In this document: positions 3,561 to 62,261 of the stretch, one piece after another
Numbering within the stretch: the stretch's first letter is position 1
Layout: each line of letters begins with the position of its first letter
Assembly (NCBI RefSeq): GCF_002994745.2
Contig: NC_037091.1
Span: forward strand, 33,358,612-33,422,611
DNA length: 64,000 nt
Reading direction: 5' to 3'
Source: Rosa chinensis
Lineage: Eukaryota; Streptophyta; Magnoliopsida; Rosales; Rosaceae
Translations under genes and position numbers: made by a program
The notes under the pieces: generated by a model
What the model was told of the DNA's origin: nothing
The model's input: the letters and a program-made list of their open reading frames with translations, nothing else
The model's database searches: none

Positions 3561-4237
3561 TAGGGCTGGGGACGAGCCGGTTTTGTGTTGATACTGAGCC
3601 TGATACGGAAAATATATTTCAGTACGGGCCAAGATGAGATTTTGATTTTTCAAAGTTGGTACCAACAATACAGAAACCGAACGGGTTCGGTTCCGGCTCG
3701 GGCCCATTATGAGATTTAAGTTTTTTTTTTTAAATTAAAAAAATGATCGTGCTCTCGAGTGAGCATCTGCCTAGACCGCCTTCTTGGCTCTAGTCATGAA
3801 TTACAGCCAACTAAACAAAAACAAAGCAAGCAAAACTGCAAAACCAGCATGACCGATATAGAAAGGTAGACTATTGAAATCCAAATACAACTCAAATATC
3901 AATTTTTACAAACCCTAAGAAAATAACATTACCCTGCAGATACCATTTCTTCCATATAACATGCACAAATTGACAAAACCCAGATCTTAGAAAAGATAAT
4001 TAAAATCGATGGGAATAGATCTAGGAAGCGTTCCTTGTGGGTGGTGTGATGATTGTGATGCCACCGAAGTCGACTGAAGATGGTGGAGGGGCCGAGGACG
4101 TCGGAGGTGCAGCAGTGTGGTGGTGATGGCTAGAGTGCTGAGACTCTTTGAAAAAGAGAGGCTGAATAAAGGGTGAAGGAGAAAGAGCCAAAGAGGGATG
4201 AAGACAGAGGGAGGGAGGGAGGGAGGGAGGGAGGGAG

Positions 4238-31834: not shown

Positions 31835-32230
31835 GTATAATATACAGATTTTAACCAGAGCAGAGCTCCACTTTGAAATTAACGTGTGAAGTTCGAGTTT
31901 TTGGTCACTTTTTGGTCGCATATTCACATGTTGACTGTTTAGTTTTTAGATACTACTGTATAGATCATCTCTGCAAATTTTCAACCAAATTGATGATCGT
32001 TAAGGTATCTAACTCGCTTAAACCAATGGACTGACTGAACTATCTACCTAAACTGTACTAGCTTTAAAGTAGTTATCAATGCCTTAACGATCATTAATTT
32101 GGCTGAAAATTTGTAGAAATGATCTATACACTAGTACCTAAAAACTGAACGGTCGAGATGTGGATATGAGACCATAAAGTGACCAAAAACTCGAACTTCA
32201 CACGTTAATTTCAAAGCGGAGCTCCTCTCT

Positions 32231-32234
<4 letters not shown>
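31835..32234. mobile_element. Palindromic MITE, copy 1
   Basis: The two halves are inverted copies. The left half contains AGAGCTCC, TTTGAAATTAACGTGTGAAG and CACTTTTTGGTCGCATATTC; the right half carries their complements. The centre contains AAATTGATGATCGTTAAGG and its inverse. It belongs to the same family as 44843-45237 and 50553-50955 but has diverged and lacks their telomere-like motif. The right end abuts a (TA)n run. Confidence 0.75.

Positions 32235-32264
<30 letters not shown>
32235..32264. repeat. (TA)n microsatellite
   Basis: About 15 TA units at the right edge of the palindromic MITE. Confidence 0.9.
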
Positions 32265-34368: not shown

Positions 34369-34523
34369 TGTTGAAGAAATTTTCAAAATATAATATTTAT
34401 TAAAAAATAAAAATGTGTCATTTGTGTTTGCACCTTTTGAGTTTGTCTGAATGAAGTAATATGACCAAAGTCAATTGATACAAGTGAAAACGTACCTTAC
34501 TATTTGAAGGGGTACTGTACCTA
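34369..34523 (+). mobile_element. Left part of an older LTR-like repeat split by the 34.5-43.5 kb element
   Basis: The stretch begins TGTTGAAGAAATTTTC, a common LTR start. It seems to resume at 43548, where a TATA box (CTATATAAAGG) and a stable hairpin (43689-43722) follow, consistent with the U3-R part of an LTR. Boundaries and class are inferred only. Confidence 0.35.
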
Positions 34524-34980
34524 TGTGAGAATACGAGAACTAAGTATGGAGTATGATAGAGAGAGAGATAGTGACACAAGCATGTATAGTGGTTCATCTT
34601 GCCCTTGACGCAAGGCTACTTCCACTTAGAAGTTCCACTATGAGTGAGGCCAAGTAGCCTTTGTAGTATACAAGTGTGGGGATCATGGATCCCATCCTCA
34701 TCTAAGAAGGGGAGGACTTCCCTTTATAGCTAAAGGAAGTCTCCTTCTAGTTTACATTTCTGATGTGGGACATAATACACATATTTACTTCTCTTGAAGC
34801 CTCTTGGAGAGCATGGGAGGGTGACCTCCTGACTAGATACCGGCCGACCTCCACCATGGCAACGTAGCTCGGGTGTCGGTCTACTGGATGCATGCCATAG
34901 GCGGGGCTAGCCATGTCGTGGGGCTTACCTATGATGTCATTGCTTATGCTTGGCGGTATGTGGTATAAGTGATATCAACA
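34524..34980 (-). mobile_element. 3' LTR of the non-autonomous retrotransposon
   Basis: This 457-bp LTR, read on the minus strand, starts TGTTGATATCACTTATACC and ends CGTATTCTCACA. It differs from the partner LTR at 43091-43547 at about 25 positions (counted by eye, about 5.5%). A PPT-like tract ACTTGGGGGACT (plus strand 34979-34990) lies directly beside it, which sets the element's orientation to minus. Confidence 0.9.
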
Positions 34981-35880
34981 AGTCCCCCAAGTCCCCGAGT
35001 AAGAGGTGCTTCTTGGTTGGAGAGTTTAAATATGATGCCGCCAAGTATGAGTGATGACCTCGTTGAACGCCATACCCATAGTAGTCCCCCACTCCGTAAG
35101 CAAGAAGGGACTGTTTGGGTCTTGTGAAGTTTCCATGGTAGGTTGGTGCCACGGGGGGCTCATCATCGATCTAGTACCTGCAAATAAGATAAGAGTGTAC
35201 AAAGAGCATATTGATTGCGCTAGGGCAATCTAAGTGACAATTGAGTCAAATGCATCGAGGTGCATGAATGTTTATATGAGATACATGTTACACATTGTGT
35301 GTGCACGTATTATGTAGTGTTGACATAAGGCGTACAATTCAAAAATGTATGTGGTTGTGATAGTATAACGAAGTGCATGTAATGCATAGATGTGTGATGA
35401 ACGTGATGACGCGTACATAACAATATGTATATGTTGTATGCATATGATGCACATGTGATAAGATCGGGAGTGTTGTTATTCGCCGAGTCCCCCAAGTCAC
35501 GTAGTTAGTAAAACTGGAATTCGGACTTAGATTATGTTCAATGATACCGGTGAGGCTAAGAATGAAGCTCCGGTATCGAAGTAACTACTTGTCATACTAG
35601 CGAGACTATGGCAAGACCATGATAGTCCCCCAAATATGAGTGTGTAAGAATTGCGCTCGCTCATATTGAGCGAGTGATAGGTTGTGTGAGTTATGTCCTA
35701 TGGTCTTATTAATGGGATGTAAAAGAAATTTAATTGTTGTGATCAACAATAGGTGAAAAATTTCAATATTTCCATTAATAGACCATAGCACGAAAAGTAT
35801 GAGTGTGAAGCTCAATGATAGTCCCGGTCAGGTACTACCTCCACTTGTGATAAGTGGTATGAATAAGTCCCTCAAGTGTA
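34979..35880 (-). repeat. Repeated PPT-like tracts
   Basis: Variants of AGTCCCCCAAGT (ACTTGGGGGACT on the element's sense strand) occur next to the LTR at 34980 and again near 35084, 35488, 35622 and 35868. Neighbouring words such as GTATGAGTG are shared too. The region looks like decayed duplications of the polypurine tract. Confidence 0.6.
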
Positions 35881-43082: not shown

Positions 43083-43090
43083 TGTTTCTG

Positions 43091-43547
43091 TGTGAGAATA
43101 CGGGAACTAAGTATGGAGCATGATGGAGAGAGAGATAGTGACACAAGCATATATAGTGGTTCACCTTGCCCTTGAGGCAAGGCTACTTCCGCTTAGAAGT
43201 TCCACTATGAGTGAGGCCAAGTAACCTTTGTAGTATATAAGTGTGGGGATCATGGATCCCATCCTCATCTAAGAAGGGGAGGACTTTCCTTTATAGCTAC
43301 AGGAAGTCTCCTTCTAGTTTACATTTCTGACGTGGGACATAATACATATATTTACTTCTCTTAAAGCCTCTTGGAGAGCATGGGAGGGTGGCCTCCCGAC
43401 TAGATACCAGCCGACCTCCACCATGGCAACGTAACTCGGGTGTCGGTCTACAGGATGCATGCCATAGGCTGGGCTAGCCATGTCGTGGGTCCCACCTATA
43501 AGGTCATTGCTTATGCTTGGCGGTATGTGGTATAAGTGATATCAACA
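43091..43547 (-). mobile_element. 5' LTR of the non-autonomous retrotransposon
   Basis: 457 bp, the same length as the partner at 34524. On the sense (minus) strand it starts at 43547 and ends at 43091. Flanking bases are ACCTA on the left and GGTAC on the right, so there is no perfect 5-bp target duplication, although GTAC occurs near both ends. Confidence 0.9.
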
Positions 43548-44800
43548 GGTACATATACTTCTATATAAAGGATTCATTCTCTATAGAATGAGAAAATTCC
43601 AAGACAATTCCAGAGAATCCTAAGAGAGTCCCAAGAAGATCTAAACCTCCAATATTCACCATTTTCATGTTTTATTACACATAAAACTACTAGAAACTAA
43701 TAGTGCACAATTAGTTTCTAGTAATCTTGAGCAATCTTGTAAACATTCTTTTGAGTGTTTATGTTGGTTTTCGTGAGTGTAAAACGCAGACCAACAACAG
43801 TATTGTGCTGGGCTTCATTGTATCCTAAAGGCATATTTGATTATTCCCCTTTACACACTTGATAGTGGGGCAAATAATGTCTTAAGGAAAGAGTTGCTAC
43901 AACGTGCCTTAGAAACATAAACTCTCTCATAATCCATATCACAAATTTGTTCTAACAATCTTAAGACATTATTTTAGCCAATGAATATTTTCATTTGAGA
44001 GAGTTTATGTCCAAGTTTGAAAACCGATAGAGGCTATATATTTCAAGAGAGGAGAAAAGAAAGTATCGATCTGAACATGATGTAAGACTCTTTCGTTCAC
44101 TGTCAAGTCTCTAAAGGCTCCAGGTACAAAAATTATTATTAGTGGTTTATATTTTTTGATGTTTTGCTAATAAATATGTATGTTAATTCTGCAATGTGCT
44201 TTGATTGCTATGTCGCACATATATGCGTATAAATGAGGAAGTTGAACCCATGATATAAATCTGGTTATATTGCTTGATTTGGGTTAACACCAAAATGACC
44301 ATAGATTTCTAGGTTGAGATTATTGCCATATAAATTAATATGCATATGTTCATTTACATTTTACATTTGTTTGATGAAGCCATTGATCTCAACGTACATA
44401 TTGCATTTCTTAATGACATCATGAGAAAGAAAAGTTATTGTTGCATATTAGATAAAATGAGCTTTGATCTTCTAGGGTTGTATGGGACTTTTGATATGTT
44501 CTAACATGTGATAGTATTGATATCTAGATTATTTGATTATGTTTGATTGATTAATTATGCATATACAAAGTTGCATGAATTTTTTATCATTTGCATTTTC
44601 GCTGATCTTGTCATGAATCATATCTAATACAAATTCAAAAGTTACATGCTCATAAACAAGATCAAAAAGTCAGGCCAATTAAATTTAGCAAGCATGTTTA
44701 TATATATCCAAGGGTGGAGGCACTGAGAGGCACATTGCATCACATGACCCAGTAAACTTTTCTGACCAAATATATATTATACTGTCAACATTAAATAAAC
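43548..44800. other. Remainder of the older repeat and AT-rich spacer
   Basis: A TATA box (43561-43571) is followed by a perfect 13-bp-stem hairpin (43689-43722) and by a 14-bp inverted repeat AATAATGTCTTAAG / CTTAAGACATTATT (43873-43886, 43960-43973). If this is an LTR, it may end at TCTAACA (43957). From 44000 to 44800 nothing is recognisable. Confidence 0.35.
43689..43722. repeat. Perfect 13-bp-stem hairpin
   Basis: ACTAGAAACTAAT and ATTAGTTTCTAGT are separated by the 8-nt loop AGTGCACA. It lies about 120 bp downstream of a TATA box in the suspected LTR and could be an RNA hairpin of its R/U5 region. Confidence 0.85.
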
Positions 44801-44842
44801 ATGTACTCATAATATATCCACCTTTGCATATATATATATAGA

Positions 44843-45237
44843 TCCTATCCAGAGCGAGGCATCGCTTTGAAATTTCAGAGCGAGGTTAGGGTTTAGGGTC
44901 ACTTTTCGGTCGCATATCCACATCTCAACCGTTCAGTTTTTAAGTACTAATGTATAGATCATCGCTGCAAAATTTCAACGAAATTGATGGTCTTTAAGGT
45001 ATCTAACTCGCTTAAACCAATGGACGAACTGAATCTGTCCGACCTGAACCGTACTAGCTTTAAGGCAGTTATCAATGCCTTAACGACCATCAATTTGGCT
45101 GAAATTTTGCAGAGATGATCTATGGATTAGTACCTAGAAACTGAACGGTTGAGATGTTGATATGCGACCGAAAAGTGACCCTAAACCCTAACCTCGCTCT
45201 GAAATTTCAAAGCGATGCCTCGCTCTGGATAGGATCT
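44843..45237. mobile_element. Palindromic MITE with telomere-like motifs, copy 2
   Basis: Ends GATCCTATCCAGAGCGAGGC are inverted, and the arms are complementary for about 190 bp each. Each arm holds TTAGGGTTTAGGG (44886-44898) or its complement (45179-45191). TA-rich sequence flanks both sides, as for the other copies, which suggests insertion into or between TA repeats. Confidence 0.88.
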
Positions 45238-45252
45238 GTATATACATATATA

Positions 45253-45339
45253 TATCCTATCCAGAGCGAGGCATCGCTTTGAAATTTCAGAGCGAGGTTA
45301 GGGTTTAGGGTCACTTTTCGGTCGCATATCCACATCTAT

Positions 45340-45409
<70 letters not shown>

Positions 45410-45410
45410 C
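45253..45410. repeat. Half-copy of the MITE and (TA)n run
   Basis: Bases 45253-45337 repeat the first 85 bp or so of the MITE (CCTATCCAGAGCGAGGC...CATATCCACATCT). A run of more than 30 TA units follows to about 45407. Confidence 0.85.
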
Positions 45411-45798
45411 AAGGTTCCAAAGAGGACGTCCTTGCTATAGTTAAGTTGCGGATGGGTCAAGCACAGCCGTCCATTGCTTTAAATGAAAAGCAACGGCTCA
45501 GATCGATCTCTTCCCAAAAACAATCAGAGATCGAAGTAGAAAGCCTCAAACGCACTGTAGATTCTCCACTTCGATATAACCAAAGTCTCTGGTTCTCCAC
45601 TCTGATGAGTCTCTTCTCACCCAAAACCATTAACAGCGCCGGAGTGATTCCACCGGCGACGCCTGATATCAGTCCCCGCCGAACCTCGTCATCTCCTTAG
45701 TCCTCCTCACTGCTGGCGTTTGGGTTCGACGATGACGCGGTCAACGGAGCTCATCACCGGTGAAGACCCCGATGAAGGTCCCGAAGTCGCAACTAAAG
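45411..45798 (+). promoter_or_regulatory. Duplicated leader and first exon, left copy
   Basis: Leader-type sequence holds an 83-codon open frame (ATG at 45452, ending 45700), then ATG at 45732 opens MTRSTELITGEDPDEGPEV and runs 67 bp to a good donor (AAAG/GTAAAG). The right arm carries the same exon on the minus strand with Leu in place of one Pro. Here the next coding exon on the same strand is the DDR4-like exon at 46733. The two do not join in frame (G + TAAACTGA gives a stop), so a chimeric protein is not made by simple splicing. Confidence 0.6.
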
Positions 45799-46732
45799 GT
45801 AAAGCTTTGAGTTTTCTGAGTTTGAAGATTTGGGATTTTTCAGATTTCCGATTTTAGATTTCAAATTTCAGATTTCAGGTTTCAGATTTTGAGGGTTATG
45901 GATTTTGTGGTGTGTGTGATTTTTCTTTAGGTTACTAACAGGTTTCAATTTTTTTCTTGTATGAAGTAAAATTCGGATAGGAAATGTTCTTAGATATTTG
46001 AAGTTATTGTATAAGGGAATTTGATTCTTGTTGAGGAGTGAGGATACTGCTTGGCATTTACTAGTAAATCAATTTGGTACGTCCCTTGCAATAGAATAAA
46101 ATAGAACTCAATAGTCTGAGAAGTAGAAATTGACAATCGAAAGAGAAATAAGAACTTTTATGGTTCTGGAAGAGTTTATTTCCACTGAGGAAAACCTACA
46201 CTGGAAGAATTGGATACCATAGTTGTTTCTCCTCCTCCTCAAAACTCTCTATGCGGTCAAAACAAATTGGCCAAGTTGTATCTCATTTGATTTGTGTTAG
46301 AAAGGGAAAATTTGCATTTGGGCATCTACTCCAAAATTTGCATTTGTGGTGTGTTTGATTTGTTGAGAAATAGCTTTGTGATGAGGTGATTCTCTTTGTA
46401 TAAGATGAATGTAACTCTTAAACTGACACTGTGGTCAGTAAATAAATTCTCAAAACATGGAGCCTTAATGCCCCCAGATATGTTCAAATTGTTATAAGGA
46501 AGGACAAGAGTGAAAGCATGCTCGACTGCAAGCAATTGAGAATGTTAAAATCAAAGATGCCTATAATTTACAAATTCAATTAAGAATGCTTTCACTCCTA
46601 ACGTACCTTTGTGATGAAGTGATTCGCACTTCTTAAGTACAAAGAGAGTATTTTGACTATAATTTACAAAAGTTCATGTTTTTTGGGTCAAGACTCAAGA
46701 GTAAGATGAAAACTTTTCAATCTTTCTTCCAG

Positions 46733-47752
46733 TAAACTGAGGAGCTGGATAGAAGAACAGCATGAAAAGATTGTTGAAAGCGAAAAGGAAGCAAAAGGAA
46801 AAGTTAATGCAACCAAAGATAAGGTAAGATATAGTATAAGGCAAGAATCCCTTGGAGCCTAAATGTTAGTTCTGCTTAAAACTAATTTTATTGTTAATGT
46901 ACAGGAAAAACTCCTCAAGCGGAAGTTGCAAGATAAGGTGGCGAAGCTTATTATTGCAAAAAATGGTGCTCCTCTGTCAATTTCAGAACATGAAGCTCTT
47001 GTTTCACAAATAAACAGTGAAGCAGCTCAAGCTCACGCTGAGTTGCTTGAAGCAGAGGGCATAGTGCCTAAAAGTATGTTCCCATTTCTATTATCTTTAG
47101 TTCACTGTGTTTTACGAGAAACATGAACTGTCTATCTGGTACAAGTGCTGTTTCTTCATGTCATTTTTGTTCCACTGTCATGTCTTTCGTGAATCTTTTT
47201 CATACATGCATGTGTTAAAAGTTCCTTGTACATATTTTGTAGAGAAACATAGATGTGATGTTTTAAGAACAGAGCCTTATCGTGTGGATGTTGATGGCCG
47301 CATCTTTTGGAAATTAAAGGGTTACAACAATGGAGAAGATATCGTGCTTCAAGGTTAGATTTTTGAGCGGTGTCAATTGTAATAAGTTTTGTTCCAGTTT
47401 ATGAGTCTGGACATTAAATTTGGTATTGTACAGATTTGGGGGCCTGGGATGCAGTTGTATCTAAAGAAGAATGGTTTGTTTATGGTGTGGAGACAAAGGA
47501 AGTAATTGACAATTACTGTTCTTATTTAAGGTATGCACAGTTACTCGTCTTACATTTTCAGTTTAGTTGAAACACCCTGATTCACATGATATCGCGTACT
47601 TTCTGTAATGTAGCTCTAGAACTCCAGAACTCAAAGTTCTGTTTGCTTATAAAGGTAATAACTCGAGTGTTTGCTTGGTTTGCAGGAGAAAAAAGTCTAG
47701 TGGAACCGTGTCGCAAACTGTTCCTCGTGAAAGCGATGAAGAAAACATGTAG
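46733..47752 (+). pseudogene. DDR4-like DDT/WHIM protein, C-terminal exons only
   Basis: Five exons (46733-46823, 46905-47073, 47243-47353, 47434-47530, 47686-47752) have canonical splice sites and consistent phase, and stay open to a TAG. They encode KLRSWIEEQHEKIVESEKE, EKLLKRKLQDKVAKLIIAKN, GAPLSISEHEALVSQI, then a WHIM-type segment (VLRTEPYRVDVDGRIFWKL, DLGAWDAVVSKEEWFVYGVE) and a short acidic tail (ESDEENM). This matches my knowledge of the C-terminal part of plant DDR4-like DDT-domain proteins, small partners of ISWI chromatin remodellers. The N-terminal DDT half is absent; upstream lies the inverted arm with a foreign first exon out of frame. The coding sequence itself has no lesion, so the capture is fairly recent. 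Naming within the DDT family is likely, not certain. Confidence 0.7.
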
Positions 47753-48472
47753 ATGAGGGCCATGGTTATTTCAAATGGCATATACTCCTAATTTGCTTTA
47801 CAATTGAATAGTGTAGATCATCAAGATTATCAAGAGATTGGCTGCTTCTGTCCAAAAGGAATTGTCAGTGTTGTAGAAGTAGGTTCACATACACAGTTGC
47901 AAGTATTTTGGATGCCCAATTGTTCTGCATATCTTCCTATATGGTAAAGCTGATTCATAAGTGTTGTCTTTTGATTTGTAACTGGGAGTTGTACCCCACT
48001 ATTTTTTGGGCGATCTTAAGGAATTGTACAACAGAGGAACCCCAAACTGATTAGTAATTTCTGAGTTCATATTATTTGCTGCATTTGTTTCCAGATTCAT
48101 CTTGATGTTTGTTACAGTTGATCATAATGTAATATTCTTCATCAACTTATCTATGATTTTATGCAGCATCATCTTTGGGGAAATAATACTACCTAAATCC
48201 TACTTCACTTTCTTTTTAAAATCCTTGGTGACGGTAACAATGCCAATTGCTCAACCCCTTCGTGCATCAAGATGCTCGTTCAAGTCATCAAGACGTTAAC
48301 TTCTTTTGAAGTCATTCATTTGGAACATTTTTGAGAGACCAGTTTAGTGGAATATGCTATTGTAATATTGCACAGCTCAAGTGCTTTACCTTTAGGTGCA
48401 TTCATTCGCATATCTTGCTTGACACACAAAAAAACAAAAAACAAAAAAAAATCACATCTCTTGCACATTCAA
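47753..48472. other. Trailer of the DDR4-like fragment and spacer
   Basis: AT-rich; plausible 3' UTR to about 48060. No other gene. The opposing minus-strand gene ends at about 48700, so the two units converge here. Confidence 0.45.
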
Positions 48473-48629
48473 AGAGCTTTGCTCTTGCTATGCTTCCAAA
48501 GCAAAGCTGATACAACCAACCTTTCTCAATCGGATACAATATACAAAGACTAAAGCCATTTCATTCCTTCTATAATACTGGAAAGTACAACAAATGACAC
48601 CTTCTCCAGCATAGCAAGAGCAAAGCTCT
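48473..48629. repeat. 22-bp perfect inverted repeat, 113-nt loop
   Basis: AGAGCTTTGCTCTTGCTATG (48473-48492, extending two bases further) is exactly complementary to 48608-48629. It lies between the two convergent transcription units. No target duplication was seen. It could be a tiny foldback element or a hairpin terminator. Confidence 0.8.
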
Positions 48630-48705
48630 GTGATATTGATCAAATTCACATTACATTCACATGTTCTATACATTGATTTCGTAAAGCTAAGAGGTCACCT
48701 TACTA

Positions 48706-50166
48706 CTACAAGCATTCCACAAATAAACACATGAATATTTGTACCAGGAATCCTGAGAAATTTAAAACATGAATATTATTAGACTTCATCCAGCATTAGT
48801 TCTATTAGCATTGTAGAAAGAGAAGTATAGATCTCACCAATTGCAGTGCGAGCGGCCTCAAGAAGTTCAAACTTGTGGGTTTCCCATCTATTGGGAGTTT
48901 GGAAAACCTATTCGGCATTCAAACAACAATCAGGGACATCCACAATAACAATTTGGGAATGTATTAGTTTTATAGTGTTAGGCCTGTCATGATGAAGAAC
49001 TTTCTCTGTCATGAGAATCTTTTAGATCAAAACTTGAGAAATATCTTAACATTCTGACCAATTGCCAATAATACTCAAAATTTGAAATGTATAACAACTT
49101 ACCTCTAATGTTACATTCCCATTGGCAACACAAGCAATGGAAAGAAGCACTCCAACAGATGATGCAACCATGTAAACTTTCAACAAAGTTACTCGACTAC
49201 GCCTTCGACCTTGGCTCAACAAAAAATTGTGGTATAAGAGCAGATACAATAATGAAGTCACTTAAAAGAGAGATGCAAGATTTGTATATCTACCTAAGTC
49301 CCCAAGTATCAAAGAAATTGAACCAATAGCTATAGAAGCGATAGCAATCACATCAGGATCTTCCCCTTTGGAAGTAAAAAGAAATGTATATAGGACTCCT
49401 ATCAGCTGAAAGACAGCCTGCAGCAGCACAGAAAGCTATAAAATAAAGAGGACAGAGAGATTCCATGAAAACTGAAGCATCAACAATAATTAAGTTGTTT
49501 TATGCTGGTCACTGAGATTCACCATACTTCCTCAATCTATTTTCAAATTTTGGAGTATATGCCCAAATGCAAATTTTCCCTTTCTAACACAAATCAAATG
49601 AGATACAACTTGGCCAATTTGTTTCGACTACATAGAGAGTTTTGAGGAGGAGGAGAAGCAACTATGGTATCCAATTCTTCCAGTGTAGGTTTTCCTCAGT
49701 GGAAATAAACTCTTCCAGAACCATAAAAGTTCTTATTTCTCTTTCGATTGTCAATTTCTACTTCTCAGACTATTGAGTTCTATTTTATTCTATTGCAAGG
49801 GACGTACCAAATTGATTTACTAGTAAATGCCAAGCAGTATCCTCACTCCTCAACAAGAATCAAATTCCTTTATACAATAACTTCAAATATCTAAGAACAT
49901 TTCCTATCCGAATTTTACTTCAGACAAGAAAAAAATTGAAACTTGTTAGTAACCTAAAGAAAAATCACACACACCACAAAATCCATAACCCTCAAAATCT
50001 GAAACCTGAAATCTGAAATTTGAAATCTGAAATCTGAAATCGGAAATCGGAAATCTGAAAAATCCCAAATCTTCAAACTCAGAAAACTCAAAGCTTTACC
50101 TTTAGTTGCGACTTCGGGACCTTCATCGAGGTCTTCACCGGTGATGAGCTCCGTTGACCGCGTCAT
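48706..50166 (-). CDS. Small plant membrane protein of unknown function
   Basis: Minus-strand exons: E1 50100-50166 (MTRSTELITGEDLDEGPEV), E2 49294-49435 (VFQLIGVLYTFLFTSKGEDP, IAIASIAIGSISLILGDL), E3 49103-49209 (RRRSRVTLLKVYMVASSVG, LLSIACVANGNVTLE), E4 48838-48907 (NRWETHKFELLEAARTAI) and E5 48706-48752 (GFLVQIFMCLFVECL, stop). E2 to E5 join in phase with canonical sites. Hydrophobic stretches in E2 (two), E3 and E5 predict three to four transmembrane segments, with an acidic cytosolic N-terminus. E1 to E2 is off by one base as drawn, so an exon is missed, a splice site is misplaced or the gene is frameshifted. The E5 end looks short. The product would be roughly 140-150 aa. I do not recognise a named family. 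Its promoter and first exon are duplicated in inverse orientation 4.4 kb away. Confidence 0.55.
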
Positions 50167-50488
50167 CGTCGAACCCAAACGCCAGCAGTGAGGAGGACTA
50201 AGGAGATGACGAGGTTCGGCGGGGACTAATATCCGGCGTCGCCGGTGGAATCACTCCGGCGCTGTTAATGGTTTTGGGTGAGAAGAGACTCATCAGAGTG
50301 GAGAACCAGAGACTTTGGTTGTATCGAAGTGGAGAATCTACAGTGCGTTTGAGGCTTTCTACTTCGATTTCTGATTGTTTTTGGGAAGAGATCGATCTGA
50401 GCCGTTGCTTTTCATTTAAAGCAATGGACGGCTGTGCTTGACCCATCTGCAACTTAACTATAGCAAGGACGTCCTCTTTGGAACCTTG

Positions 50489-50491
<3 letters not shown>

Positions 50492-50551
<60 letters not shown>
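50492..50551. repeat. (TA)n microsatellite
   Basis: About 30 TA units between the leader and the MITE in the right arm. Confidence 0.95.
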
Positions 50552-50552
<1 letters not shown>

Positions 50553-50555
<3 letters not shown>

Positions 50556-50955
50556 TCCTATCCAGAGCGAGGCATCGCTTTGAAATTTCAGAGCGAGGTT
50601 AGGGTTTAGGGTCACTTTTCGGTCGCATATCCACATCTCAACCGTTCAGTTTCTAGGTACTAATCCATAGATCATCTCTGCAAAATTTCAGCCAAATTGA
50701 TGGTCTTTAAGGTATCTAACTCGCTTAAACTAATGAACGAACTAAATCTGTCCAACCTGAACCGTACTAGCTTTAAGGCAGTTATCAATGCCTTAACGAC
50801 CATCAATTTGGCTGAAATTTTGTAGAGATGATCTATACATTAGTGTACCTAGAAACTAAACGGTTGAGATGTAGATATGCGACCGAAAATTGACCCTAAA
50901 CCCTAACCTCGCTCTGAAATTTCAAAGCGATGCCTCGCTCTGGATAGGATCTGTG
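50553..50955. mobile_element. Palindromic MITE with telomere-like motifs, copy 3
   Basis: Same family and structure as 44843-45237: ends CAGATCCTATCCAGAGC, internal TTAGGGTTTAGGG and its complement, and (TA)n on both sides. Confidence 0.88.
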
Positions 50956-51862
50956 TATATATATATATGCAAGGGTGGATATATTTATAATATTTAAATA
51001 AACTTTTCTGATCAAATATATTTAATGTTGACTAGTCAAACCATAATTCATAATATATTTATATATGTACTCACAGGTCAACATTAAATATAGGATTAGA
51101 TTATGTTTAGTCCCTGTACTATGACCTTTTTTTCATTTCAGTCCCAGACATTCTCAATTAATCTGAAAAGTCTCTAACGTCAAAATTTCCATCTAATTGG
51201 TCCCTCCATCGTCAAATTAGGAGTTGGTCTTAGGTGAAATGTCCAATATACCCCTCTATTATTTTTTTTTGTTTTTCCTTTTTAACTTCTTTTTTTTTCC
51301 TTTTTAATTTCTTTTTTTCCTTTTACTTTTTAAATTTCTTTTTTGCTTTTTCTTCTTTTTTTCTTGTTCCTTTTTAATTTTTTTTCCTTTTTTTCCTTTT
51401 TAATTCTTTTTGCTTTTTCTTCTTTTTTTCTTGTTCCTTTTTATTTTTTTATTTTTTTTTTCGTTTTGCCTACTTTCTCCTTCCTCAACCCATCAATCCC
51501 ATTCCGATCAAACTCCACAACCCATCTGTTTCTCTCCCCAAATTGAAACCAAACCCAGCAAACACCTAGCTTGGCGGTGCAGAGATGGACATCGAGCAAA
51601 AGTAAAAGGCTAGGAGCTGATCGATCACTGCTTCACCTTCTCTGAAGCCATCTCCCTCTCTTGGGATTCGCCCTCGCCTCCATCGTCACCGACGCCATCT
51701 CCCAAACACAAGCAGATCCTAATCAGCTCGGAAATTCGCCGCTAAACCACTCCCCTCTTGTTTTCACAGCCTACTTCTCTCTCTTCCACTCAAATCTCAC
51801 TATCTCTCTCCACATCAAGCCACAATTTGGAAACTTTTCACTAAAAACTACCATTTTTTCAG

Positions 51863-53374
51863 GGGAAAAATTCACCAACGGTGTCTGGACACTTAAGGGA
51901 CTTTCAGAATGATACCTGAACTTACAAAGTTATCAATGTGATACCTAGACTCATTTTTTCGTATCAACGTGGTACCTACGACCAATTTCAGTCACGGAGC
52001 CGTTAAATTTTGCAAGTGCATCGCACGTGAGTCACTTAATGAAGACAAAAAGACTGATTTACCCTCAATTTTCTTTTCTTTTCTTTTCTTTTCTTTCTTT
52101 CTTTCTTTCTTTCTTCTTCTTTTTCGATTTCTTCTTCCCCTGATTTGAATCATCAAGATTCAAAATCATCTTGCTTGTCCAATTCCCACCGCCGATTGCC
52201 AATCAAACACCGCCGCTACGTCTCAATCCACCTTCATGCACCGCAGATGTTTCTGGTTCCCCCCACTTCAAATCCTACAGCAAATTGAAATTGAGCACTG
52301 AGGCTTCGCCGCTCACTCCAAGCTCTTCCTCGTCGCCGCCGACGACGACTTAGCCACCACCACTCTCGTTCTCTCCTCCGACCCAGGGGTGGATCCAGGA
52401 ATTCAACCTTGGTGGGGCTTGAATTTCTTAACAAATGAAAAAAAAAATGGCTCTGCACATCAGCAACATCCATGAACTCCATTCAAGTTTACACACAAAT
52501 TCAGCAAACCCAACCCAGAAATCAAATTCACGTTTACACACACAAAAATTCAACAAACCCACAAATTCACGTATACACAATTTCAGATACCAAAAAACAA
52601 CCCAATACCCAGAAGGCCAGAAATCAAAAAGGGTTTAGCTAATTAGCTTTATCAATTTCAATTTGGGTTTTATAAATTGGTTATCAAAATACCTATTTAC
52701 CATCGGTGATTAGGTATTTCGGTGGACTCACTGATCAAGCCATCAAGGGGCTAAGACAGAGCCAGAGGAGGAGAATAAGAGAAGAAATCTAGAGCAGTAG
52801 TCGGTGGATTCACTGATCAAGCCATCAAGCCATCAACGCATCGAGGGCCAAAGACGGAGAGGAGAAGAAGAAAAGAAGAAACTGAGGATGTAGAGGGTTA
52901 GGTTGCCCATTGCTGAAGAGGACGAGGATGAAGAAGAAAAGGACCATGAGGAAGAAAGAGGGTTTCGCCGGAGATCGAGAAAGAAAATGGGCTCAATGGG
53001 CGTGGCGGTGGTGCTGGTTGAACTGATCGACCGATGTAGTTTGGTGTTGGTTGCAGTGGTGTTGGCAAGGAGATAAGGAGAGAATAAAGAAACCCAAAAA
53101 GAAGAAGAAGAAGAAGAAAGAAAGAAAAGAAAAGAAAAAGAAAGAAAGAAAAGAGAAAAAAAAAAACTTTGAGGGTAAATCGGTCTTTTTGTCTTCATTA
53201 AGTGACTCACGTGCGATGCATGTGCAAAATTTAACGGCTACGTGACAGAAATTGGTCGTAGGTATGACGTTGATACGGAAAAATGAGTCCAGGTATCACA
53301 TTGATAACTTTGTAAGTTCAGGTATGATTCTGAAAGTCTCCTAAGTGTCCAGACACCGTTGGTGAATTTTTCCC
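51863..53374. mobile_element. Inner foldback Mutator-like element with 9-bp target duplication
   Basis: Ends GGGAAAAATTCACCAACG are inverted, and the arms stay complementary for about 210 bp. Flanks are an exact TTTTTTCAG at 51854-51862 and 53375-53383. The interior (52080-53170) contains TTTCT-repeats, a segment starting CAGGGGTGGATCCAGGAATT (near 52384) that looks like an hAT-type end, and two copies of a TCGGTGGA(C/T)TCACTGATCAAG segment about 90 bp apart (52710, 52800). It has no coding capacity. It inserted into the outer element, dating it as younger. Confidence 0.92.
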
Positions 53375-54358: not shown

Positions 54359-54660
54359 TGTGGCCATTTTAAGGGATCCCTTGTGAGACCCACTTCTCGA
54401 TCGTATTTCGGCATCTTGATCATTCAGTTTTTAGGTCCTAATGTATAGATTATTTCTGCAAATTTTCAGCCAAATTGATGATCGTTAAGGTATCGAACTA
54501 GATTAAATCAATGGACAAACCGAATCTGTCGAACCTGAACCGTTCATGTTCATAATTGTAAATCGCAGTTGTGAATGCCTTATTTATTATCAATTTGGCT
54601 GAAAATTTGCAGAAGTTGTGCATGCAAGAAGCCTAGTTGTGCAACCAAATTGATAATAAA
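54170..54660. mobile_element. Decayed remnants of the palindromic MITE family
   Basis: Pieces such as CTGAACGGTCGAGATGTGG (54178), ACTTTTCGATCGCATATCC (54280) and CAAATTGATGATCGTTAAGG (54472) match copies 1-3 in scrambled order around a (TA)n run at 54323-54357. Confidence 0.7.
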
Positions 54661-56502: not shown

Positions 56503-56537
56503 ATCCTTGAACAAAAGGCCATCCCACCACACTCACC

Positions 56538-57896
56538 ATGACTAACGGTAGCGGGGGAAATGCTGAAGAGCAGGCAGACCATCCCTCCATCCCCCAATCT
56601 TCCGACCCAGCGGTGGGCGTTAACCGCGCACTATTCACAACCCCGGTCAACCCCGGTGGTGAGGTAGATCCAAGCGGCAGTCGCCCGCCGGGCCAAGACC
56701 TCGTCACTATGTACGAGCTAGCACTAGCGGATCTCCATAAGGCAAACAGGGAACGTGAGGAGGAGCGCAAGGAAAAGGCCGAGCCCCAAAGACAGGTGGC
56801 TACGCTTATGGAACGTTTTGAGGAACTGAAAAGGACGCTGGCGGCCACCGCCCGCCCAGCACTGAGCGGGCAATCACATAACACCAGGCATAGTCGACCC
56901 AGCACCGGCACATTGGTACCAGGGCCGGCTATACAGATGCAGGTACCGTTGAACCCATCTGAATTGTTGGGAATGGGACCACCGCCCATACCTCAACTAT
57001 TGCTGGAGCAAGTGGCGGAATCACTCCCGCACACCAACCGCTCGGGAGCCAGGGCAAGGACTGAAGGCAATCTGCCTATGCCAGGGCGCAGGCCATCCCA
57101 GCGGGACATTCAGGCCGATTCCGCCAGCGATGCAACCGCCCAGATATTGGAAATGATGCACCAACTGGAGCAGAGGTTGATCCGGGCGGAATCGGGCGTC
57201 CCAGCACCAACTCGGAATCCGCTCTTCACTTCCAGACCGGGACCCTTCTCCGCTGCAATTCTGCGGGCTGTCAGATCGGCACATGCAAAAATCCCAAAGA
57301 TGTCGCATTACGGCGGAATGTCCGACCCCTTCGTCCACATGGACACCTTCAAGAAGGTCACCAACAACAAGGGGTTCGACGACGCCACCTTGTGCCACTT
57401 GTTCAGCGAAACGTTGGATGGCGAGGCAATGAACTGGTTCTTTGAGTGTCCACCGGGGTCTGTCAGCTCATTCCATGCACTATCACACGCTTTCCTCTCC
57501 CGCTTCATCTTATTGTCCGCCGGTCATCACAACACGAGCCAGCTATTCAGCGTTAAGCAGGGGGTGGACGAATCACTGAAGGCCTTCGTCACAAGGTGGC
57601 GAGCGGCAGCGTCTCAGTGTCGCGACCTAGACAAAACTATGGCATCAGCGGCCTTCAGGAAGGGACTTCTCAAGGGACCGTTCCTCTATCACCTCAACTA
57701 CAATCATCCCAATGCGACGTATGACCACGTCATGAGTGAGGCGGTCATTCACGCTCAGGCGGAATTCATCACATATGGAGAAACCCCACCACCACCAGCA
57801 ACGCCAACAAAGTCAACACTGCCATCCTCCGGTCACCAGGAAACCGCTAACAAGAACCCGTCAGCACCACCAACTGACAAGAAAAGAGAGTGGTAG
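56538..57896 (+). CDS. gag: Tat-lineage Gag (ends at in-frame TAG)
   Basis: The ATG lies 36 bp after the primer-binding site and opens 452 codons. Residues 1-250 are polar and low complexity with a short helical segment (ELALADLHKANREREEERKE). The retrotransposon gag core is at about 255-410 (HYGGMSDPFVHMDTFKKV, LDGEAMNWFFECPPGSV, FSVKQGVDESLKAFVTRWRA, RKGLLKGPF). The frame ends GAG TGG TAG and continues in the same frame without another stop to the zinc knuckle (KWCKYHEDSGHNTNSC, near 58122), which Gag normally includes. Gag therefore lacks its nucleic-acid-binding end unless the TAG is read through. It packages element RNA into virus-like particles. Confidence 0.9.
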   Translation: MTNGSGGNAEEQADHPSIPQSSDPAVGVNRALFTTPVNPGGEVDPSGSRPPGQDLVTMYELALADLHKANREREEERKEKAEPQRQVATLMERFEELKRTLAATARPALSGQSHNTRHSRPSTGTLVPGPAIQMQVPLNPSELLGMGPPPIPQLLLEQVAESLPHTNRSGARARTEGNLPMPGRRPSQRDIQADSASDATAQILEMMHQLEQRLIRAESGVPAPTRNPLFTSRPGPFSAAILRAVRSAHAKIPKMSHYGGMSDPFVHMDTFKKVTNNKGFDDATLCHLFSETLDGEAMNWFFECPPGSVSSFHALSHAFLSRFILLSAGHHNTSQLFSVKQGVDESLKAFVTRWRAAASQCRDLDKTMASAAFRKGLLKGPFLYHLNYNHPNATYDHVMSEAVIHAQAEFITYGETPPPPATPTKSTLPSSGHQETANKNPSAPPTDKKREW

Positions 57897-60800
57897 CAGG
57901 GCCACCACCAGAACAAGAAGCAGAAGGACCAGCATTACAACAGGGGAAACCGCCCGACCCATGGGGATAACCGCAACAAGCAGGCGGAGTCCTCGCAGCG
58001 GTATGCAGTTTTCACGGTCCTAACGGCCTCGTATGAAGATATCTATAATCAGTGCAAGGATCTGATTCCACCGCCACCTCCTCCAAAGTACCCAAAAACG
58101 GGTAAACCCAGGAACACCGGCAAGTGGTGCAAATACCACGAGGACAGCGGCCACAATACCAATAGCTGCAACGCTCTCAAAACAGCCGTTGAGACCTTGT
58201 ACCGCGACGGCAAGATGGAACAGTTCAGGGTGCGCCCACCACCACCAGTAATTGCCAACGTCGAGACCTTGGGCCGCATCAACACCATCGATGGCGGTGC
58301 TCCAATCACCAACATGTCCCACAGGGCAAGAAAGCGCTATGCACGCGCTAATCATCCGAAGGAAGTCTGCAACATCCGCTACGAAAGATCCGCCAAACTC
58401 CCAAGATCAGGTTGGGAACCTATTACCTTCTCGGAGGAGGAGGAGCGCGGAGTCCATTTACCCCATGACGACCCATTCTTGGTTGATGCCATTCTTGGCA
58501 AATTCTCGGTGGGGAGAATCTTGGTGGATAGCGGGTCCGCTGTCAACGTCATCTTCAGCGGCTGCTACGACCATCTCAAGCGGAACAAAAAACTACTCCA
58601 GGATCACGAGCCACTGCTCAGCTTTTCCGGTGACGTCACACAACCGCTAGGGTCTGATTACATGCGCTTGGTTATTGGCACTAGTCCGTGCATGGCGGAG
58701 GTGCATACAGAGTTCATTATTGTCGACTGTTTCAGTTCGTACAACGCCATTATTGGTCGACCAGCGCTTAACAAGCTCAAGTGCATCATTGCCGGGTACA
58801 TGCTTCTCATGAAGTTCCCCACGCCCAACGGCACGGGCTGTGTGAGGGGAAGCCAGCAGCTGGCACGAGAATGTTATTCAAGGACTATAGCGCGGTCGAC
58901 ACGCCGCCATGAGATTATGACGATGGGTAACGAGGCACCACCACCAAACATCTTTGAGGATCCTAGAGATGAGGAGAAGAAATATGTAAAGAAGGAGCCG
59001 GTCAACCCGGACACGTCGTTGAAAGTTGTCTGCATCTCAAACGAGCACCCTGAGTGGACAGTCTGCATAGGCGCCCAACTAGATCCAGAGGTGGAGGCAG
59101 AACTCACTCAGTTCCTACGTGATAACGCCGCCGTCTTTGCATGGTCCTACGCGGACATGCCAGGTATCTCCCCTGAAATTATCACTCATAAACTGACCAT
59201 CAAGCCCTCCTTTTATCCTATCAAGCAGAAGCGGAGGACCTTTGATGAGGAAAAATACCGGGCAATCGGAGAGGAGGTCGCCAAACTACGGAACATTGGA
59301 TTTATCCGCCAAGTCATCTATCCCCAGTGGATCTCAAATTTGGTAATGGTCAAAAAGCCCAGCGGCAAGTGGCGGATGTGCATCGACTTCAAAAATCTCA
59401 ACAAGGCATGCCCAAAGGATAGCTTCCCGCTACCTCGTATCGATCAGCTAGTTGATTCAACTGCCGGACACGAACTCCTCAGCATGATGGACGCTTTCTC
59501 CGGATACAATCAGATCAAGATGCACCCTAGTGACCAGGAATGCACTACCTTCACCACCGATAAAGGCCTCTACTGCTACAATGTCATGCCTTTCGGTCTA
59601 AAGAACGCCGGCGCAACGTACCAGCGGTTGATGAACGCCATGTTCACTGAGCATCTGGGAAAAATCATCGAGGTCTACGTGGACGACATGCTAGTTAAGA
59701 GCATAAAGGCCAGTGGACATGTGGCAAACCTCAGGATCATAGTAACCATCCTCCTGGCCTATAATATGCGCCTCAACCCAGAAAAATGTTTCTTTGCAGT
59801 CACCGCTAGCAAATTTCTCGGCTACATCGTCAGCGAGCGAGGTATCGAGGCTAACCCGGATAAGGTACAGGCCATCCTTAACCTGGCGAACCCCGAGTAT
59901 AAGGTGGACGTCCAGTGCCTCCAGGGCAAGTTAACCGCCCTTTCTCGATTCATCTCTCGACTCACTGATAAGTGTGCCCCATTCTTCAAACTCCTCAAAA
60001 CAACTCACAAGAAGGTCATTGACTGGAACCCAGAGTGTCAGGCGGCGTTCCAGGGCCTAAAAGAATACCTGGCGGCAGTCCCTCTCCTTTCTGTCCCTGT
60101 GCAAGGAGAAACACTGTTCATCTATCTAGCGGTCTCGGCAACGGCGATAAGTTGCGCCATTGTCCGACGGGAGGGCCAGGATGAGCTCCCCGTGTTCTAC
60201 GCCGGCAGAGGCATGAACGGAGCAGAAACAAGATATTCACCGTTGGAGCAACTGGCCCTCGCACTTATCGTTGCCGCCAGACGCCTCCGGCAGTACTTCC
60301 AGGCTCACACGATCCATGTGCTAACCAATCAACCGCTGAGGCAAGTGATGCAGAACCCTGAACACTCGGGGCGCCTCAGTAAGTGGGCCATTGAGCTCAG
60401 CGAATTCGACATAGAATACAAGCCAAGAACCGCCATGAAGGGCCAGGCGGTGGCGGACTTCATCGCTGAACTTACTAAGCGTCAACCGGAACCCGGTACT
60501 CAAACAGAGCCCGGAACAGAAATAGTAAGCGGTGAAGAGGCAACTCCCCCACAGTCAGATTGGAACCTGCATGTGGACGGCTCCGCCTGCGCCAAGGCCA
60601 GCGGCGCCGGAGTCATCTTAACAGGACCCGGGGGACTGAACGCGGAGTACGCGTTGAAGTTCAACTTCAAAGCTTCAAACAACATGGCAGAGTACGAGGC
60701 ACTTATCGCCGGCCTACTCCTCGCCATTGACTCAGGAGTTGACAGCGTCAACATATTCAGCGACTCGCAACTAGTCGTTAACCAAGTCAACGACAGCTTC

Positions 60801-60950
60801 CAGGCCAAGGACCAGCAGTTAGCGGCATATTTGGGATACGTCAAAACCTTGCTAAAAAAGTTCAAATTTCACTCCATCACACAAATCCCCAGGGAAAAGA
60901 ACGCTAAGCCTGATTCACTGGCGAGACTGGCAACCGCCCAACCACATTAG
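57897..60950 (+). CDS. pol: Tat-lineage Pol: zinc knuckle, protease, RT, two RNase H
   Basis: The same frame as gag continues after the TAG, open to a second TAG at 60948-60950. In order: the CX2HX4HX4C knuckle (58122); aspartic protease DSGS (58534) within ILVDSGSAVNVIF; reverse transcriptase (59220-59880) with RMCIDFKNLNKACP, MPFGLKNAGATYQRLMN and catalytic YVDD (59675); a first RNase H (60100-60470) with YSPLEQLALALIVAARRL; and a second, archaeal-type RNase H (60562-60930) with LHVDGSA, NNMAEYEALIAGL, FSDSQLVVNQV and DSLARLA. The double RNase H and absence of a chromodomain mark the Tat lineage. All catalytic residues seen are intact, so only the stops disable it. Confidence 0.92.
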   Translation, partial: QGHHQNKKQKDQHYNRGNRPTHGDNRNKQAESSQRYAVFTVLTASYEDIYNQCKDLIPPPPPPKYPKTGKPRNTGKWCKYHEDSGHNTNSCNALKTAVETLYRDGKMEQFRVRPPPPVIANVETLGRINTIDGGAPITNMSHRARKRYARANHPKEVCNIRYERSAKLPRSGWEPITFSEEEERGVHLPHDDPFLVDAILGKFSVGRILVDSGSAVNVIFSGCYDHLKRNKKLLQDHEPLLSFSGDVTQPLGSDYMRLVIGTSPCMAEVHTEFIIVDCFSSYNAIIGRPALNKLKCIIAGYMLLMKFPTPNGTGCVRGSQQLARECYSRTIARSTRRHEIMTMGNEAPPPNIFEDPRDEEKKYVKKEPVNPDTSLKVVCISNEHPEWTVCIGAQLDPEVEAELTQFLRDNAAVFAWSYADMPGISPEIITHKLTIKPSFYPIKQKRRTFDEEKYRAIGEEVAKLRNIGFIRQVIYPQWISNLVMVKKPSGKWRMCIDFKNLNKACPKDSFPLPRIDQLVDSTAGHELLSMMDAFSGYNQIKMHPSDQECTTFTTDKGLYCYNVMPFGLKNAGATYQRLMNAMFTEHLGKIIEVYVDDMLVKSIKASGHVANLRIIVTILLAYNMRLNPEKCFFAVTASKFLGYIVSERGIEANPDKVQAILNLANPEYKVDVQCLQGKLTALSRFISRLTDKCAPFFKLLKTTHKKVIDWNPECQAAFQGLKEYLAAVPLLSVPVQGETLFIYLAVSATAISCAIVRREGQDELPVFYAGRGMNGAETRYSPLEQLALALIVAARRLRQYFQAHTIHVLTNQPLRQVMQNPEHSGRLSKWAIELSEFDIEYKPRTAMKGQAVADFIAELTKRQPEPGTQTEPGTEIVSGEEATPPQSDWNLHVDGSACAKASGAGVILTGPGGLNAEYALKFNFKASNNMAEYEALIAGLLLAIDSGVDSVNIFSDSQLVVNQVNDSFQAKDQQLAAYLGYVKTLLKKFKFHSITQIPREKNAKPDSLARLATAQPH

Positions 60951-62261
60951 AGTCTAGCGGACACAAGGGTGGAATACCTTGACAAGCCAAGTATCACAAA
61001 GACCCTGGCGGAGATTTTCAACATTCACGTCAATCCCAGCTGGATGGACGAAATCATTGCATACAAGCGCAGCGGCACATTGCCAGAAGATAAAGTCCAC
61101 ACAAGACAGCTCAAACACAGGGCAACCCGCTACAACATCCAGGATGGCAAGCTTTACCGCCAGGGATTCACCCACCCCAACCTCCATTGCCTAACCCCAG
61201 AAGAGGGAAAGGCCGTCCTAGCACAAATCCACGGCGGAGAATGTGGAAACCACTCGGGCGCCAGATCCTTGGCCAACCGCACAATGCGACAAGGCTACTT
61301 CTGGCCCACACTTGGTGATGACGCCCGGCGGATTTCGAGGTCTTGCCACAAATGCCAACAGTTTGCAGATCTCCCCCACGCACCGGCGGAACCACTGTCA
61401 GTCATCATCGGCCCATGGATTCATTCCACGTGGGGCCTGGATTTGATGGGAAAGTTCCAAACCGCCAAGGGTCAGTTCAAATACATCATTGTTGCCATAG
61501 ATTACAACAGTAAGTGGATAGAGGCGGAGCCACTGACGGCAATAACTACCGCAAAGGTAATTCGCTTCCTTTGGAAGAATATTTACTGCCGCTATGGTGT
61601 CCCACATACAATCATTACAGACAACGGCACACAGTTCAACAATAAGGAACTCATCTCATTTGCCGCCAACCTGGGCACCAAGTTAAGTTTTGCATCTGTC
61701 GCCCATCCCCAAACCAACGGCCAAGTCGAAGCAGCAAACAAGATAATCAAGAAGCTGCTAAAAAAGAAGCTCGACGACGCCAAGGGTTTGTGGGCAGAAA
61801 AACTTCTAGAGGTCCTATGGGCCATCCGGACAACCCCATCTACCGCCACCGGCGAAACTCCTTTTTGTATGATGTTCGGCACAGAGGCGGTCCTTCCTAT
61901 GGAGGTAACTCATCCTACCGCTAGGGTCGAAGGCTACGGCCCAGAGACCAACAACGACGGCGTCAACTTGGACAGGGATCTCCTAGAAGAAAGAAGATAC
62001 AAGGCCCATCTGCATAACTTGCAAAACAAACAACGGGTATCGCGTTTCTACAACGCCAGAGTCAAGGCCCGGAACCTCCAACTGGGGGACTGGGTAATGA
62101 AGGAAGTCATCCCGCCACCAACAAAACTCCGCCCAACATGGGAAGGCCCATACAAAATCGTGGAAGTCGTTAGCCCAGGCACCTTCTACTTAATGGACAA
62201 GGACGGCGTCACGTCGACCCACCCTTGGAATACTGAACACCTTCGGTATTACTACAAATAG
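60951..62261 (+). CDS. Tat-lineage integrase (in frame after second TAG)
   Basis: The frame is continuous with pol except for the TAG. An HHCC zinc-binding region (GECGNHSGARSL ... CHKCQQF, near 61230-61360) precedes the DD35E core: D in WGLDLMG (61438), D in ITDNGTQFNN (61619) and E in TNGQVEAANK (61727). The C-terminal part has LQLGDWVMKEV and LRPTWEGPYKIVEV, the GPY-type tail, and ends YYYK. There is no chromodomain. There is no ATG near the start, so it must be made as part of the polyprotein. Confidence 0.9.
   Translation, partial: SLADTRVEYLDKPSITKTLAEIFNIHVNPSWMDEIIAYKRSGTLPEDKVHTRQLKHRATRYNIQDGKLYRQGFTHPNLHCLTPEEGKAVLAQIHGGECGNHSGARSLANRTMRQGYFWPTLGDDARRISRSCHKCQQFADLPHAPAEPLSVIIGPWIHSTWGLDLMGKFQTAKGQFKYIIVAIDYNSKWIEAEPLTAITTAKVIRFLWKNIYCRYGVPHTIITDNGTQFNNKELISFAANLGTKLSFASVAHPQTNGQVEAANKIIKKLLKKKLDDAKGLWAEKLLEVLWAIRTTPSTATGETPFCMMFGTEAVLPMEVTHPTARVEGYGPETNNDGVNLDRDLLEERRYKAHLHNLQNKQRVSRFYNARVKARNLQLGDWVMKEVIPPPTKLRPTWEGPYKIVEVVSPGTFYLMDKDGVTSTHPWNTEHLRYYYK

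Follow-up and report, generated by a model that had tools for sequence, protein, structure and literature searches.

The window analysed here is a 64,000-nucleotide stretch of Rosa chinensis chromosome 4 (NC_037091.1, positions 33,358,612 to 33,422,611). From about 45404 to 50496 it contains two inverted arms, each with a leader and the same 67-bp first exon, that enclose pieces of two host genes, one of the Jagunal family and one that an earlier note on this DNA had named DDR4-like (annotated relatives are called DDT domain-containing or cell division cycle-associated 7-like). The arms and their contents are very probably a non-autonomous Pack-type Mutator-like element (Pack-MULE) of a Mutator-like family, with terminal inverted repeat (TIR) boundaries on both sides, and the extended TIR of the family itself accounts for what had been described as a shared promoter and first exon. 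The earlier note had proposed either a Pack-type transposon or a simple inverted segmental duplication as the origin of the locus. The dispersal of the arm sequence in the rose genome, the inward-facing pairs it forms and the transposase-like sequence in sister copies favor the former over the latter.

The inverted arms were recovered as a 1014-bp inverted block with 96.9% identity. With the (TA)n run excluded, 15 of 933 aligned bases differ between the arms (45407-46340 versus 50490-49544) in addition to one 14-bp insertion or deletion (K = 0.016), and the end-to-end inverted similarity of the element is 951 bp. The first exon is present in both arms as previously stated, at 45732-45798 on the plus strand and 50166-50100 on the minus strand, with one difference (P to L). 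The left end (45404-45925, plus strand), delimited by blastn against 17 sister loci of which at least 8 cover it, consists of the TIR proper (about 45404-45597), the leader, the first exon and the start of intron 1; the right end (49959-50496, minus strand), placed by sister-locus and TIR comparisons, consists of the TIR, leader, first exon and start of intron 1. (TA)n runs of 64 bp (45342-45405) and 60 bp (50492-50551) lie at the left and right ends. The arms had originally been drawn out to 44815 and 50995 to include a miniature inverted-repeat transposable element (MITE) on each side, but the element ends inside these limits, at about 45404 and 50496. The left and right MITEs are 95.3% identical in direct orientation and only 89.3% in inverted orientation, while each is 87-88% identical to its own reverse complement. 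They therefore appear inverted because they are palindromic, and their true orientation is direct.

Captured gene pieces and chimeric gene models

The right half of the element holds a genomic capture from a Jagunal-family gene (48734-49952, minus strand), spanning from within intron 2 to just inside the last exon and about 95% identical to the parent at C4:37563716-37565184 (L048 3717-5185), on the same chromosome as the element. Protein P0003 matches the Pfam family PF07086 (Jagunal). The left half holds a capture from a DDR4-like zf-4CXXC_R1 gene, covering its 3' portion (46594-48434, plus strand) and 94.8% identical to its parent on chromosome 2 (C2:78756319-78758140); a full-length relative, P0014 (LOC112189585), carries PF10497. 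Both captures keep their introns, so their source was DNA, and both have a parental copy elsewhere, as is expected of the host pieces in a Pack-MULE. A further 402 bp of the Jagunal-family intron 2 lies inside the left arm (45932-46333, plus strand; 94.4% identical to C4:37564779-37565184), next to a short MULE internal repeat (46343-46382, plus strand), and MULE internal sequence common to sister copies is found at 48490-48731 on the minus strand.

Two side observations concern these pieces. The element contains a separate dispersed repeat of about 160 bp (46405-46565, no strand assigned) that recurs in 7 further copies of 96-99% identity on several chromosomes and appears recent. The native Jagunal intron includes about 243 bp (L048 ~3950-4190), flanked by AATAC repeats, that are missing from the captured copy and may have entered the parent afterwards.

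Convergent transcription from the two arms, as proposed in the earlier note, is reflected at the level of gene models, with the two bodies LOC112196458 (isoforms X1 and X3) and RchiOBHm_Chr4g0409761 facing each other; promoters in the ends would presumably drive both in the plant. The coding sequence of right isoform X1 (50126-50100, 49417-49294, 49209-49103 and 48907-48779, minus strand) starts with MKVPKSQLK (phase 0) and its translation equals P0001 exactly, while X3, with exon 1 at 50166-50100, starts with MTRST (phase 1) and its translation equals P0002 exactly. The right copy thus leads into membrane-protein sequence as claimed, but into a fragment rather than a complete gene: the native N-terminal exons are absent and the last exon is reduced to about its first 20 bp.

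The left copy of the first exon (45732-45798, plus strand) has both frames, MTRSTELITGEDPDEGPEVATK in phase 1 and MKVPKSQLK in phase 0, open through the donor and leads, in agreement with the earlier description, into DDR4-like C-terminal exons. Exon 2 (ERENLHLGIYSKICICGVFDLLRNSFVM; 46301-46385, plus strand), formed from the Jagunal intron and a bit of MULE sequence, encodes residues identical to those in R. rugosa P0042, and is followed by the DDR4-derived exons at 46733-46823, 46905-47073, 47243-47353, 47434-47530 and 47686-47752. This chimera has seven exons, introns that are all GT-AG, and an open frame of 228 amino acids with a stop codon. The R. rugosa protein aligns with it end to end, with 222 of the 228 residues equal and 6 different. 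An out-of-frame fusion of exon 1 directly onto KLRSW was considered and rejected, since inclusion of exon 2 (46301-46385) brings the reading back into frame. In the R. chinensis model P0041, exon 1 and KLRSW are instead separated by the residues DFS. For the captured DDR4 part, the rates of nonsynonymous and synonymous substitution are about equal (dN 0.0266, dS 0.0278; 11 changing and 3 silent codons; noncoding K 0.037), and by this measure no constraint is apparent; some of the changes fall on the native branch in an alignment judged by eye. Searches with the left fragment gave no Pfam family and one chance-level match in PDB.

The transposon family and its first exon

Genome searches, in which only the best candidates were scored (40 of 97 for the arm without the MITE and 40 of 77 for the TIR alone), place the element in a dispersed family. 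The first query found at least 60 matching pieces, including the element's own two arms, and identified its bases 1-516 (45410-45925) as a dispersed repeat. The second found at least 40 ends, the window's own two counted. On reading the list by eye, 26 of the 40 scored ends can be grouped into 13 pairs that face inward at distances of up to 13 kb, again counting the window pair; inward-facing pairs of long TIRs (about 100-500 bp) are characteristic of MULEs. We fetched 20 stretches, of which 19 have family ends and represent 17 copies (L030/L031 and L034/L035 are one copy each), the other being the Jagunal locus L048. The family's ends mostly sit in microsatellites: TA and/or CA runs flank most of those examined, with only short irregular runs at one end each of L041 and L047, and a TATG-type run at one end each of L038 and L043.

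Leader and exon 1 are found at both ends in L032, L033, L034/L035, L038 and the window element (L033 and L034/L035 are near-identical to each other), and at one end only in ten copies (L029, L036, L037, L039, L040, L042, L043, L044, L045 and L047). In L030/L031 one end carries exon 1 and the opposite end a portion of the leader, L047 contains an additional 42-bp exon-1-like piece inside, and a single end was seen for L041 and L046. Most single-headed sisters have an inverted end similarity of about 190-250 bp (about 105 bp in L039). Transposase-like sequence occurs in 8 of the 20 fetched loci (L036, L037, L040, L042, L043, L044, L045 and L047), six of these sisters being 4.7-5.4 kb. Five of six open reading frames (ORFs) from L037, L042 and L045 match PF03101 (FAR1), PF10551 (MULE) or PF04434 (SWIM) in Pfam; L042:5937-6506 matches no family. 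These transposase ORFs are fragmented in most sister copies. The transposase starts from the end without exon 1 and hence faces the exon-1 end. A tblastn search of the window at 44000-52000 with the N-terminal 260 amino acids of the L042 transposase, the sole part used as a query, gave no match. ORFs of the sister copies examined and three-frame translations of L029, L037, L040 and L043 revealed no convincing second coding gene 3' of exon 1, the longest same-strand ORF being 122 amino acids (L043). Besides these, the family member L030/L031, about 11 kb in size, carries a Psb27-like piece (PF13326) and, as judged by eye, an apparent Copia-type retrotransposon in its interior.

The first exon itself was compared across 21 copies, the two in the window and 19 others (those of L033 and L034 near-identical). 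A GGTAAA donor motif is present in 20 of the 21, with L046 as the exception, and an ATG start codon likewise in 20. Eighteen copies have an open MKVPK-type frame, with the phase shifted in one. In five (both window copies, L029, L040 and L041) the MTRST frame reads through to the donor, the TAA that would close it being absent from the window element and a few other copies. An origin of exon 1 in the DDR4-like or the Jagunal gene was ruled out, as the native proteins start with MAGVRV and MQQRR. It is conceivable, but in our judgement unlikely, that the extended TIR acts as a portable exon trap, with a 67-bp exon, two start codons in different frames and a conserved donor. If so, a captured piece of either phase would be translatable, and copying one end across would give two convergent traps and two chimeric proteins.

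Order of events and alternative explanations

The left arm ends within the Jagunal intron, while the right arm runs on into the rest of the Jagunal capture; the left end was thus copied from the right, after that capture. Within the 402-bp intron piece, the left and right copies agree against the native gene at 17 sites and have 5 and 3 unique sites, respectively. In R. rugosa, where the comparison is with protein only, LOC133744202 has the exon-1 residues followed by residues that are encoded here by the Jagunal piece, and the end copying is therefore older than the split of R. chinensis and R. rugosa, put at about 5.26 million years (PMC8213826; here and below, papers are cited from excerpts).

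The following series best accounts for the locus. The long TIRs carry the family's leader, the first exon with its start codons and the splice donor, all facing inward. A Jagunal-family piece adjoining the right end was captured first, and later about 930 bp of that end, including the 402 bp of Jagunal intron, were duplicated onto the left end as an inverted copy, presumably by gap repair or recombination between ends. The DDR4-like piece now fills the left half, the place of the transposase in those sisters that have one, and each end can splice its own first exon onto captured exons to yield the two convergent chimeric gene models.

Several results weigh against this interpretation. With the left chimera older than the R. 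rugosa split, a difference of only 1.6% between the arms is small, a tension that requires a slow rate or gene conversion between the arms over some 5.26 million years. None of the 13 protein matches to a query for the right gene, in which exon 1 ran into AVFQ in a frame absent from the sequence, is named as an R. rugosa protein, so that the right chimera was not seen in that species. No target-site duplication (8-11 bp) is readable by eye in the flanks, where the ends lie within (TA)n/(CA)n. Finally, no second copy of the composite element was seen in the genome searches, so that any mobility after the captures is hypothetical.

Two other origins for the arms were weighed. A simple inverted segmental duplication, which would have set one promoter and first exon before two unrelated genes, fits arms that are inverted and about 98% alike, but it leaves aside that the first 520 bp of the arm recur at scattered genomic sites, frequently as pairs facing inward, that sister copies contain transposase-like sequence, and that both bodies are fragments of fuller genes elsewhere; we regard it as very improbable. 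Near-identical arms and TA repeats that are difficult to assemble could also point to a false inverted copy of one arm in the assembly. Against such an artefact stand the 15 of 933 differing bases with the 14-bp insertion or deletion, the R. rugosa protein with the left chimera, including residues from the piece copied from the right end, and the presence of exon 1 at both ends of L032, L033, L034/L035 and L038, even with L033 and L034/L035 near-identical, so that we give it hardly any credence.

A different question is whether the Pack-MULE locus is in addition a source of small interfering RNAs (siRNAs) through read-through RNA that folds into a hairpin, by analogy with maize Mu killer. The inverted repeat of about 930 bp at 98% identity and the convergent gene models would suit this, a read-through hairpin has been proposed for Mu killer (PMC3440606), and foldback of TIRs into siRNA precursors has been hypothesised for rice MULEs (PMC4858842). 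The first exon, however, has the same polarity in both predicted mRNAs, and pairing could therefore arise only by read-through past both 3' ends. We consider such a role possible, if rather doubtful.

With the Pack-MULE interpretation, a puzzling inverted duplication becomes an ordered series of capture, end copying and second capture at the place of the transposase, with a chimeric frame persisting in two rose species. LOC112196458 and RchiOBHm_Chr4g0409761 are accordingly transposon-made chimeras and should be taken for neither a complete membrane-protein gene nor a DDR4 gene. The locus can be used to ask whether TIR-borne exons are translated as parts of chimeric proteins and whether Pack-MULEs with long arms supply siRNA pathways.

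Surroundings and comparison with known systems

The simplest reading of the flanks is that the element inserted into TA repeats among MITE copies. The palindromic MITE of about 427 bp, often with TA repeats alongside, occurs at 44828-45253, 45239-45337, 50541-50968, 31836-32258 and 54391-54613. An arm query that included the MITE gave 264 genome matches and, among the matches listed, most were to the MITE (query 14-523). At four loci tested for MITE pairs, a clear direct tandem pair was found only in L003 (97-98%), and L005, L007 and L008 have at least one copy at only 76-85% on the plus strand. Outside the MITEs, 17-18 bases (44811-44828 and 50985-50968) do look inverted, and 44750-44815 and 50985-51065 share short direct and inverted similarities (AAACTTTTCTGA.CAAATATAT, TTGCATATATATA) that may derive from an element already present when the MITEs inserted there. 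Compared as a candidate known repeat, the outer flank has matches over a stretch of at most 78 bp only, at 7 further places. Further features of the window are a second inverted repeat adjoining the element (51863-52115 and 53122-53374, copies of 253 bp with 90% identity separated by about 1 kb), a direct duplication (43088-43550 and 34521-34983, 463 bp at 94%) and, judged by eye, long open frames at 56511-62261 that resemble gag and pol of a Ty3-type long terminal repeat retrotransposon.

We found no report of a Pack-MULE in Rosa chinensis in the open-licence literature, and among the open-licence papers listed for gene capture in Rosaceae none mentions Rosa in the title or abstract opening. 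By description, the family resembles MuTAnT of Medicago truncatula in its TA-microsatellite flanks, long TIRs and single, Jittery-like transposase, and the 4.9-kb autonomous copy AutoMuTAnT is similar in size to the 4.7-5.4 kb of six of the eight transposase-bearing rose sisters; MuTAnT copies are mostly 200-300 bp, and the excerpt describes no captured genes or TIR first exon (PMC4486113). With the Pack-MULEs or genic-MULEs of rice and other plants the rose element shares captured fragments between long TIRs and, putatively, TIR promoters (PMC4858842, PMC3310237). As in the rose arms, acquired sequence may become part of an extended TIR in Pack-MULEs (PMC3310237), and in rice the promoters of MULE-derived genes tend to sit in TIR plus internal sequence, with loss of TIR foldback proposed as the cause of lower small-RNA-directed methylation (PMC4858842). 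Unlike in those elements, a first exon that offers two start codons also belongs to the duplicated unit in rose, and there are two convergent chimeras. Maize MuDR has two convergent genes driven from promoters in both TIRs (PMC3310237), an arrangement that the rose element would match, but the rose element has a host gene fragment where its sisters have the transposase, and, judged by ORFs and translations for a counterpart of mudrB at the second end, the sisters examined have no ORF above 122 amino acids 3' of exon 1 on its strand. Mu killer is likewise an inverted duplication of MULE sequence that includes its end; it silences MuDR (PMC3440606), a function that is hypothetical for the rose element. 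This kind of element is thus already known, and the locus is a well-preserved rose example of it, ordinary in kind and clean in detail.

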